Assembly (NCBI RefSeq): GCF_007692705.1
Contig: NZ_REBN01000233.1
Coordinates: 1-34,224, forward strand
Reading direction: 5' to 3'
Source: Mongoliibacter sp.
GTDB taxonomy: Bacteria; Bacteroidota; Bacteroidia; Cytophagales; Cyclobacteriaceae
DNA length: 34,224 bases
In this document: positions 33,353 through 34,224 of the stretch, piece by piece
Numbering within the stretch: the stretch's first letter is position 1
Layout: the number at the start of each line of letters is the position of its first letter
The notes under the pieces: generated by a model
Database searches by the model: none
Told to the model about the DNA's origin: nothing
The model's input: only the letters and a program-made list of their open reading frames with translations
Position numbers and translations under genes: made by a program

Positions 33353-33562
33353 ATGCTTGATTACATACTTGCTCATCCACTTTATATTCCATTTCTAATC
33401 CTTAATATTTTTATAATCTACAAAGTAATCAAAATATATGTTTGTGAGGATCAGGGTAACAACGATGATGATGATGGAGGTATTCCCGATAATGACGATC
33501 CTGTATTGGATTTACCTCCTGGTGTAGGATCTCCGAAAAAAATTGCAAGTTTAAAAGATTAA
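33353..33562 (+). CDS. Small membrane protein with acidic tail, 69 residues
   Basis: I do not recognise a named family. The ATG-initiated protein has one membrane helix (about 10-30, LYIPFLILNIFIIYKVIKIYV), then a strongly acidic segment CEDQGNNDDDDGGIPDNDDP and a proline/glycine-rich end (VLDLPPGVGSPKK). The clean hydrophobic-acidic division and good reading frame suggest a real gene. Flanking spacers are 221 bases upstream, where nothing else is visible, and about 65 downstream to the GIY-YIG fragment. A weak palindrome AAAGGCCTTT at 33595-33604 may terminate it. It could be a small regulatory or cation-binding membrane protein; that is speculation. Confidence 0.55.
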   Translation: MLDYILAHPLYIPFLILNIFIIYKVIKIYVCEDQGNNDDDDGGIPDNDDPVLDLPPGVGSPKKIASLKD

Positions 33563-33629: not shown

Positions 33630-33746
33630 TCAATCCATTATTTTATTGACATGGTTTTCAAGTCTTTGGCTTGGGTCAAGGGTAGTTATTCCAGAATAGA
33701 AACGTCCAAGTTTTTGGCTATGTAGAATATAAAAATATGCATCCAT
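33630..33746 (-). pseudogene. Truncated GIY-YIG gene fragment
   Basis: This fragment is identical over its first 36 codons to the intact GIY-YIG gene upstream on the same strand. It then leaves the duplicated sequence, adds Met-Asp and stops at TGA (33630-33632). It keeps the first tyrosine motif, YSG and Arg28 but lacks the catalytic Glu67, so it cannot be a working nuclease. It comes with its own copy of the upstream terminator, which shows that a unit, not only a gene, was duplicated. Confidence 0.85.
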
Positions 33747-33809
33747 GAATATAAAATAATAAAAAAAGGCCGGAAATTTCTTTCCGGCCTTGTGGGCCCA
33801 CCTGGGCTC
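33639..33809. repeat. Direct repeat, copy 1 (171 bp)
   Basis: It is identical to 34054-34224 at an offset of 415 bases. It contains the start of a GIY-YIG gene, its upstream spacer, a terminator and the sequence GAGCCCAGGTGGGCCCAC (minus strand). The identity suggests a recent duplication or an active element. Confidence 0.95.
33766..33791 (-). terminator. Terminator hairpin within repeat copy 1
   Basis: AAGGCCGGAAA and TTTCCGGCCTT pair perfectly over 11 bp with a TTTC loop. On the minus strand seven T follow. It immediately follows the tRNA-like tail, as a tRNA terminator would. Confidence 0.88.
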
Positions 33810-33867
33810 TGCCGATTTCTATCGGTGCAGGGACCTCCTGCCCCGATAGCTATCGGGGGAGTCAGAA
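33792..33867 (-). other. tRNA 3'-half-like sequence with replaced loops
   Basis: Read on the minus strand, the order is CTGACTC, a perfect palindrome CCCCGATAGCTATCGGGG (33841-33858), CAGGAGGTCCCTG, then CCGATAGAAATCGG (33812-33825), then AGCCCAGGTGGGCCCAC. From memory of tRNA sequences, the first, third and last parts look like the anticodon stem, variable region, T stem and acceptor 3' strand of a tRNA, possibly of the Met-CAU type. The anticodon loop and T loop positions are occupied by the two CCGAT palindromes. It cannot be a working tRNA. The TGA in CTGACTC is the stop codon of the GIY-YIG gene. The tRNA relationship is an inference; the palindromes and repeat structure are seen directly. 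Confidence 0.5.
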
Positions 33868-34161
33868 GCTTTTGAATTTTGATAAAAGCTTTTCTATTAT
33901 CTCAGGGTACATTTTTAAGTTTTGTATGTAAGTAGAAGATTTCATTTTTTTAATATGGATTTCTAATTTTCTTGCTTGTGAAAAATCTTGACATTTTATG
34001 GCAAGGAAAAGATTCCAATCATCAGCTTTTCGAGTAAAGTTGCTATTTCCATATATTTTATTGACATGGTTTTCAAGTCTTTGGCTTGGGTCAAGGGTAG
34101 TTATTCCAGAATAGAAACGTCCAAGTTTTTGGCTATGTAGAATATAAAAATATGCATCCAT
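33862..34161 (-). CDS. GIY-YIG nuclease-domain protein, 99 residues
   Basis: This small single-domain protein resembles the UPF0213/YhbQ type of GIY-YIG nucleases. The first motif is the variant YFYIL (Tyr6), the second FYSGIT (Tyr17, Gly19), followed by QRLENH with Arg28 and His32, and ARKLEIHIKK with the metal-binding Glu67. These are the core catalytic residues of the fold, so activity is plausible. It is preceded by a terminator hairpin (34181-34206) only 20 bases before its ATG and followed directly by a tRNA-like tail that supplies its stop codon. A truncated second copy lies downstream. This context looks like a small selfish or repetitive element next to a tRNA, rather than a DNA-repair gene; that is inference. 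Confidence 0.85.
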   Translation of the reverse strand: MDAYFYILHSQKLGRFYSGITTLDPSQRLENHVNKIYGNSNFTRKADDWNLFLAIKCQDFSQARKLEIHIKKMKSSTYIQNLKMYPEIIEKLLSKFKSF

Positions 34162-34224
34162 GAATATAAAATAATAAAAAAAGGCCGGAAATTTCTTTCC
34201 GGCCTTGTGGGCCCACCTGGGCTC
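34054..34224. repeat. Direct repeat, copy 2 (at least 171 bp, cut by the window end)
   Basis: It matches 33639-33809 base for base and is still matching where the window stops, so the true repeat may be longer. On the minus strand it enters with GAGCCCAGGTGGGCCCAC, which could be the 3' end of a tRNA or of another element copy lying outside the window. Confidence 0.95.
34181..34206 (-). terminator. Terminator hairpin within repeat copy 2
   Basis: This is the same 11-bp stem, TTTC loop and T run as the hairpin at 33766-33791. It probably ends a transcript, perhaps a tRNA, that begins beyond the right edge of the window. Confidence 0.88.

Follow-up and report, generated by a model that had tools for sequence, protein, structure and literature searches.

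What is a small gene for a GIY-YIG nuclease doing between an intact tRNA gene and a broken copy of the same tRNA, and why is it repeated there? The question is raised by the right-hand end of a contig of Mongoliibacter sp. (NZ_REBN01000233.1 of assembly GCF_007692705.1), the whole 34,224-nucleotide stretch that we analysed and call the window. We give an even chance to the answer that this is a compact nuclease cassette homing into tRNA genes, with tRNA sequence serving as its homology arms, a reading in which the cutting and the transfer are inferred. What can be read from the sequences themselves is the anatomy of the cassette, its link to tRNA isotype, its presence and absence at one locus within a genus, and a match between nuclease clade, broken tRNA arm and hairpin type. 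From 5' to 3', the unit as we read it consists of an intact tRNA, a terminator, a GIY-YIG nuclease of about 80-100 amino acids, and a tail derived from the same tRNA in which one or two arms are replaced by hairpins.

A nuclease gene between an intact tRNA and its broken copy

On the minus strand of the window, the parts follow one another as intact tRNA(CAT), terminator, a GIY-YIG open reading frame (ORF) of 99 codons, tRNA-like tail, terminator, an ORF cut after 36 codons, and flank (Table 1). Both gene starts lie in a direct repeat whose two copies agree at 171 of 171 bases with a spacing of 415 bp, and the second gene copy agrees with the full gene over its opening 36 codons before it enters other sequence. 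The original prediction, made from the letters of the window, had described this 171-bp perfect repeat with its 415-bp offset, one GIY-YIG gene intact and the other cut after 36 codons, and the base comparison, the ORFs and the Pfam matches bear it out. It had also placed each gene start behind a terminator that follows a tRNA 3'-end-like sequence: both starts are indeed preceded by the 18-mer GAGCCCAGGTGGGCCCAC and then by AAGGCCGGAAATTTCTTTCCGGCCTT with a T run, and the 18-mer is a genuine tRNA 3' end, matching an intact tRNA that came to light immediately past the edge when the contig was extended rightward. The last 55 bases of the window are the first 55 bases of contig C202 of the same genome, on which ARAGORN finds an intact tRNA gene with anticodon CAT (C202:38-112, minus strand), just beyond the window's right edge; on the window itself ARAGORN found no tRNA and an Rfam scan gave no match. 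This tRNA(CAT) is the sole full-length copy in the genome, two other places matching it partially at 79%, and although ARAGORN labels it tRNA-Met, we suspect from its acceptor stem that it is an AUA-reading tRNA-Ile. The join between C202 and the window contig (C276 of the window genome, G000) is supported because both align to a single continuous locus of Mongoliibacter ruber (L071). The end of the repeat coincides with the end of the contig, and the number of tandem units in the window genome is uncertain.

Read against the C202 tRNA, the tail tracks the tRNA from about nucleotide 25 to its end, with CCCCCGATAGCTATCGGGG replacing the anticodon loop and CACCGATAGAAATCGGCA replacing the T loop. 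The M. ruber locus, from a separate assembly, holds a full gene and a second copy that has only the first 22 codons in common with it, in a repeat of 135 bp that is 100% identical. The two genomes are about 25% different here and the two copies within each are 100% identical; this identity, together with second gene copies that end at different codons (36 in the window, 22 in M. ruber), fits repeated local re-duplication.

Judged by sequence match and structural model, the 99-amino-acid window protein has the predicted fold and the catalytic residues of the GIY-YIG superfamily. It matches Pfam GIY-YIG (PF01541) at E 2e-10, and an AlphaFold2 model gives a single compact fold over the 99 residues (mean pLDDT 93.6). 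In 24 aligned members, Y6, Y17, G19, H32, T43, W49, E67 and K71 are invariant and R28 is present in at least 90%; catalysis in GIY-YIG enzymes depends on Tyr, Tyr, Arg and Glu. Among solved structures, the family profile matches UPF0213 best (1zg2, E 5.7e-12; 1ywl, E 3.8e-9), SLX1 structures at E 6e-6 to 0.01 and I-TevI at E 0.13. A Foldseek search with the predicted structure likewise ranks UPF0213 and SLX1 at the top, with no match at E <=0.001, and its leading matches include two Slx1-Slx4 structures with branched DNA. Twelve of the 24 members match TIGR01453, the NCBIfam model for group I intron endonucleases (best E 5e-8), and 4 match PHROG 314, 'homing endonuclease' (best E 8e-6), the window protein being among neither; no UPF0213 model is among the NCBIfam matches. 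Up to 8 of them weakly match the PADLOC candidate model PDC-S14 (best E 5e-5), and with only these weak matches we set aside a defence family. Nine of 25 pairs gave a dN/dS value, between 0.10 and 0.21, with dS above 1 in five of the nine; 14 of the other 16 pairs were saturated and 2 failed. On these values the nuclease looks to be under purifying selection, although some array copies have decayed, carrying stop codons or being cut.

tRNA linkage, broken copies and nuclease lineages

At E 0.001, the window protein finds a match in 95 of 196 genomes of the family and profile A1 in 271 of 395 genomes of the class, which we take to be Bacteroidia, genomic context having been checked for part of the latter; named relatives with matches include Mongoliibacter, Aquiflexum, Cognataquiflexum and two Flavobacteriaceae. 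Loci were fetched by nuclease similarity from the better matches, and none was selected by tRNA; 20 of them (L051-L070) were picked for tandem matches or other places of interest, and L082-L168 are the better-scoring places among the class-wide matches listed. A tRNA on the same strand lies within 250 bp upstream of the first unit in 111 of 139 distinct loci, with a median tRNA-to-nuclease distance of 45 bp and a distance of 20-65 bp in 93 of the 111. With a few dozen tRNA genes among the thousands of genes of a bacterial genome, chance linkage would be about 1%, as a rough rather than a computed figure. Fifteen anticodons are represented at the linked loci (CAT 30, TAC 26, GTT 23, TGT 7, CAA 5, GGC 5, TAA 3 and eight more). 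Eight of the 28 unlinked loci, the window included, have less than 260 bp of upstream sequence, as would be expected if assemblies break in repeats. Two or more units occur in 48 of the 139 loci, a share inflated by how the loci were chosen, and the longest array read has 14 units (L051); the unit measures 415 bp in the window, mostly 346-430 bp in relatives and 743 bp in L053.

Two loci stand apart in spacing, the nuclease lying 437 bp (L025, G107:C11) and 503 bp (L027, G026:C31) behind the tRNA against the usual distance of about 45 bp; in the former, the interval between tRNA and nuclease matches the 3' flank of the nuclease-free G165. In L060 (G142:C33:308300-315000) two nuclease copies lie about 3 kb apart, the one that was read being followed by an Asn-tRNA-like tail, and ARAGORN finds no tRNA in the 6.7 kb; the pair may belong to a cassette now separated from its tRNA locus.

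A significant partial copy of the local tRNA comes directly after 133 of 174 scored units (from 111 loci, with short or incomplete regions left out); among single-unit loci the figure is 49 of 65. We examined hairpins in 93 distinct tails, drawn from 106 that agree with the tRNA 3' end at 12 or more of 14 bases: 88 of the 93 contain a perfect hairpin whose stem is at least 6 long, compared with 13.6 after shuffling and 19 of 93 matching intact tRNAs, and CCGA..TCGG occurs in 72. For L031, L119, L150 and L163 the longest hairpin falls outside the replaced arm, in an AT-rich stretch. In the window, and in some of the other Met loci that were read, the nuclease gene has its stop codon inside the tRNA-derived tail. 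Broken 5' copies also precede the intact tRNA in 32 of 109 loci, against 0 when the upstream sequence is reversed, and 31 of these 32 have a hairpin-like pattern in place of the anticodon arm; L022, L023, L036 and L041 have tandem upstream copies of 83-94 bp. The 5' acceptor strand is missing from many tails, as is the T arm or the 3' strand from many upstream copies. As an observation in its own right, arrays of tRNA 5' halves with hairpins, at about 75-94 bp per copy, stand upstream of the intact tRNA in these four loci and in L051 and L186, and no gene was seen within them.

Broken arm and hairpin type follow the nuclease more than the tRNA. A maximum-likelihood tree of 132 nucleases over 96 columns, in which 61 of 129 inner branches are open, was divided at its midpoint into clade I (56 rows) and clade II (76 rows), and arms were scored as broken below 14 of 17 matches in 88 of the 93 tails (L026, L031, L066, L139 and L162 being out). 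The anticodon arm is broken in 38 of 38 clade I tails and the T arm in 3 of these 38, against a broken T arm in 39 of 50 clade II tails. Counted by locus, with hand-copied scores and one value per locus (L041, with three differing tails, was entered as intact), the T arm is broken in 3 of 32 clade I and 31 of 40 clade II loci, where P 4e-9 serves as a guide only since related loci are not independent. That the arm and hairpin go with the nuclease is indicated because isotypes present in both clades split by clade (Asn loci with a broken T arm: 1 of 5 in clade I, 5 of 7 in clade II; Val loci: 1 of 16 and 1 of 2) and because the CCGATAG core is restricted to clade II (31 of 50 tails, against 0 of 38 in clade I). 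The anticodon label, for its part, changes 26 times on the tree against a mean of 66.9 when shuffled, a count as low in 0 of 200 shuffles, and many host families contribute rows to the Val and Asn groups; each nuclease lineage is thus linked to one tRNA isotype, with exceptions. GIY-YIG genes tied to tRNA genes and tRNA tails in other genomes are what the original prediction's idea called for; hairpin-replaced loops, broken upstream 5' copies and a nuclease clade tied to arm and hairpin type go beyond it.

Occupied and empty sites and a candidate homing mechanism

Within one genus (g64), the cassette is present in three congeners, two of which have a stop codon in the nuclease, and is absent from a fourth locus (L183), where the tRNA is directly followed by the native terminator. 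The intact tRNA of the three occupied congeners is identical to the L183 tRNA. Homology of the right flank starts within the tail, at tRNA nucleotides 56-57, and continues for more than 400 bp through the native terminator, the broken tail copy abutting the native 3' flank in the occupied sites; on the left, homology in G192 reaches into the first upstream copy as far as the anticodon loop (nucleotides 34-35). Because the homology of both flanks ends within the tRNA, the whole composite, as seen from the empty site, sits inside the tRNA gene and supplies a full tRNA gene of its own. In g78, the empty G127 and the occupied G078 form a second pair, whose left flanks agree as far as the tRNA and whose right flanks agree again starting 93 bp beyond it. 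Occupied and empty alleles thus occur in close relatives, with one empty and three occupied in g64 and one of each in g78; we infer that empty means never occupied, loss being the other possibility. These comparisons support insertion at the tRNA gene, and the original prediction of a small element that sits at tRNA ends and carries a copy of the tRNA 3' part, GIY-YIG being its possible homing or recombination enzyme, is supported; the activity of the enzyme and the mobility of the element are putative. Two further nuclease-free loci deserve mention: L182 (G150) keeps the cassette's terminator and has another 3' flank, and L172 (G165) has a decayed upstream copy.

These observations can be assembled into a candidate mechanism. 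On a chromosome without the cassette, the nuclease would cut the tRNA gene close to the arm that the tail shows broken, that is, near the anticodon arm for clade I and near the T arm for most of clade II. Repair would then copy the cassette in through tRNA homology at both ends, other flank homology being unnecessary; the intact tRNA inside the cassette would restore the host tRNA, and the recipient's displaced tRNA 3' end would turn into the tail. The tail hairpin would remove the cut site or shorten the homology, and the tail would be neither cut again nor recombined away. Repeated cutting and unequal repair could build both the downstream nuclease arrays and the upstream arrays of tRNA 5' halves. 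How the intact tRNA would escape cutting and how the hairpin would enter are left over by this scheme.

Cutting, repair through tRNA homology and array growth are proposed because of an analogy with SegB, a GIY-YIG enzyme of T-even phages that is reported to cleave inside tRNA genes at the motif RAWTSGAAC and, through recombination, to amplify tRNA and segB in tandem (PMC13096335). We read this motif as the reverse complement of the T loop, GTTCSAWTY. Like the cassette nuclease, SegB is encoded beside tRNA genes of many isotypes (PMC13096335); unlike the chromosomal cassette, it is phage-borne, and the passages of that article consulted here describe no hairpin-interrupted tRNA copies. The cassette nuclease further differs in being a catalytic domain only, flanked on either side by tRNA sequence, and a phage collection holds no match to the window protein.

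Several observations weigh against homing into tRNA genes. Homing endonucleases of the I-TevI and SegB type typically have a separate DNA-binding part behind the catalytic domain. Such a part is absent here, the whole 99 amino acids being taken up by the GIY-YIG fold, and we do not file the protein among these enzymes for that reason; a catalytic domain alone, nearer to UPF0213 and SLX1 than to I-TevI, makes site-specific binding not obvious. At the limits used, the window protein belongs to no NCBIfam, PHROG or PADLOC family, and it is unmatched in 50,697 phage and 72,556 plasmid records; phage or plasmid carriage was set aside on this search, made with the window protein as the only query. 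The intact tRNA is identical to the empty-site tRNA, and in the absence of recoding the donor should be cut too. Even where upstream sequence suffices, 20 distinct loci lack a tRNA in the 250 bp before the unit; two of these have one at 252 and 260 bp and three at 437-785 bp, and an Rfam scan of 18 unlinked loci placed a tRNA behind the unit, on its downstream side, in 5. Although 13 of 30 tRNA(CAT) loci are without the nuclease, only two (G064, G127) are clear empty sites: in G088, G132, G007, G140, G164 and G035 the flanks are too unlike those of congeners with the cassette, the G137 locus is at the end of its contig, G165 agrees with G107 alone and only on the right side, and G005 and G128 had no congener compared. 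The T arm is intact in 9 of 40 clade II loci, and clade II upstream copies bear hairpins in the D and anticodon arms though they have no T arm. Isotype clustering could also stem from vertical inheritance at one tRNA locus, the forks of the tree often being weak, and no cutting or transfer was observed.

Other known systems share parts of this plan. The UPF0213/SLX1 group provides the best sequence and fold matches of the nuclease among solved structures; it is not known to have a tRNA link or repeat arrays. Elements that integrate at tRNA 3' ends with tyrosine integrases resemble the cassette in leaving a displaced tRNA 3' fragment at the native flank and in keeping an intact tRNA; they differ in that the cassette fragment is interrupted by hairpins and stands in tandem arrays, and in that the 415-bp unit, filled by the GIY-YIG ORF, is too small for a tyrosine or serine integrase. 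With no room for an integrase in the unit, we rejected an integrase element. RAYT, the Y1 HUH transposase that is the partner of REP sequences and is flanked by palindromes, offers a further likeness in REP/REPIN systems, where dispersed palindromes track in number a linked small nuclease gene. We rejected a REP/RAYT system as well, the gene next to the palindromes here being GIY-YIG and not Y1 HUH, and Y1 copy number does not explain the palindromes. It is possible, though we hold it to be doubtful, that the cassette represents a separate class of mobile element, in which a nuclease lineage and its own hairpin would break a set arm, bring an intact tRNA and seed palindromes into the loops of structured RNAs, as a pair resembling RAYT and REP but of separate origin. 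We found no account of GIY-YIG genes, tRNA copies and hairpins together in the open-access literature, most subscription papers and all preprints lying outside that search. If the homing reading is true, a common and unremarked gene is a selfish system that resides inside tRNA genes and keeps the host tRNA working, which bears on the targets of one-domain GIY-YIG proteins, on why tRNA genes attract mobile DNA, and on the origin of palindromes in these genomes. If, in addition, the hairpin blocks cutting, the cassette would be a natural cut-and-rescue design, an element that breaks an essential tRNA gene and supplies the replacement.

Palindromes and competing explanations

The palindromes themselves motivate the first alternative, that the hairpins are the mobile part: the GIY-YIG enzyme, partner to a palindrome family in the way that RAYT is to REP, would nick or cut hairpins and spread the palindrome into hairpin loops, with tRNA copies as just one type of target and the tRNA serving as a safe harbour. 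We judge this unlikely, but a good deal speaks for it. The palindrome CCGATAGCTATCGG occurs 13 times in the window genome, once in the tail, and 2 of 13 scanned palindrome loci lie in known RNAs, in the apical loops of RNase P RNA and a cobalamin riboswitch. At least five palindromes are found in 27 of 41 family genomes with a strong nuclease match (E up to 1e-10 to the window protein, taken as clade II-like, which is an approximation), in 8 of 54 with weaker matches only and in 9 of 101 with none. By genus, 20 of 25 with a strong match reach this number against 5 of 59 (P 2e-10), and in 19 mixed genera the count is higher in 13, lower in 5 and tied in 1 (Wilcoxon P 0.007). The count goes with the nuclease (rho 0.52), and the Y1 transposases, with a partial rho of 0.06 once the nuclease is allowed for, were rejected as the palindrome source. 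The restriction of the CCGATAG core to clade II and the branched-DNA Slx1-Slx4 entries among the best structure matches point the same way. Weighing on the other side, the mixed genera yield only P 0.10 in a sign test, and the counts include array palindromes. Nine of the 101 genomes without a match still have at least five palindromes, one of them 77, 'without a match' here meaning no match to the window protein and not nuclease-free, as G017 and G157 (14 palindromes) match profile A1. The hairpins of clade I differ, the evidence for dispersal covers the CCGATAGCTATCGG type, and no palindrome movement was seen. The genome with 77 copies of CCGATAGCTATCGG is G159, in which a divergent relative of the window protein is possible.

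A role at the RNA level strikes us as quite unlikely. The tail would then be a structured 3' untranslated region or a decoy RNA, processed by tRNA enzymes and acting in regulation or defence. Such a role would account for stems that are kept perfect, with at least two complementary pairs directly outside the core in 22 of 22 distinct copies and four pair types at the first position, and it is favoured by nuclease stop codons within tRNA-derived tails and by the PDC-S14 matches. Perfect stems are, however, also expected if a palindrome inserts into existing hairpin loops; most copies, missing the 5' acceptor strand, the T arm or the 3' strand, could not form a tRNA, although the aligned tail of L150 departs from this rule and intact tRNAs are found among the downstream copies; and array copies decay through stop codons and truncations.

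It is also improbable, in our judgement, that the loci reflect plain tandem duplication of tRNA genes followed by decay, with a nuclease that settled once and was inherited vertically and with tails and upstream copies as dead duplicates. Intact tandem tRNA genes do stand upstream in 17 of 109 loci, and the identity of copies within the window genome and within M. ruber, against a divergence of about 25% between the genomes, is what repeated duplication would give. Random decay is not expected, however, to produce perfect hairpins at the frequency seen in tails, nor to break different arms in different nuclease clades, and empty sites occur within the same genus, though loss could also explain them.

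That the window locus is an assembly artefact or a chance repeat has almost no probability left: the repeat stops exactly at the contig end and there is a 55-bp overlap with the next contig, but relatives in other assemblies share the plan, some within one contig, which rules out an artefact, and identity over all 171 bases rules out chance.

Table 1. Features of the repeated nuclease unit in the window and related palindromes elsewhere in the window genome (G000)
Feature	Position	Strand	Basis
Direct repeat, copy 1: tRNA 3' end, terminator and first 36 codons of the full GIY-YIG gene	34054..34224	-	100% identical to 33639-33809
Direct repeat, copy 2: tail end, terminator and first 36 codons of the cut gene	33639..33809	-	repeat comparison
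Last 18 nucleotides of intact tRNA(CAT), remainder on C202:38-112 (-)	34207..34224	-	55-bp overlap, ARAGORN
Terminator hairpin AAGGCCGGAAATTTCTTTCCGGCCTT after intact tRNA	34181..34206	-	sequence reading, repeat comparison
Full GIY-YIG gene, 99 amino acids; stop codon TGA inside tRNA-derived tail	33862..34161	-	ORF list, Pfam PF01541
Tail: copy of tRNA 3' part, interrupted by two hairpins	33792..33870	-	window read against C202 tRNA
Palindrome CCCCGATAGCTATCGGGG at the place of the anticodon loop; core CCGATAGCTATCGG	33841..33858	-	palindrome reading
Palindrome CCGATAGAAATCGG at the place of the T loop	33812..33825	-	palindrome reading
tRNA 3' end that closes the tail, 18 nucleotides	33792..33809	-	repeat comparison
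Terminator hairpin, second copy	33766..33791	-	repeat comparison
GIY-YIG gene cut after 36 codons	33639..33746	-	PF01541, E 1.2e-4
CCGATAGCTATCGG palindromes in apical loops	L013 G000:C73:7524-7537; L010 G000:C7:6697-6710		RNase P RNA gene, cobalamin riboswitch

Beside the cut gene copy, on the plus strand, lies an ORF of 69 codons (33353-33562) without a Pfam match, whose product has a hydrophobic N-terminal part and an Asp-rich middle.

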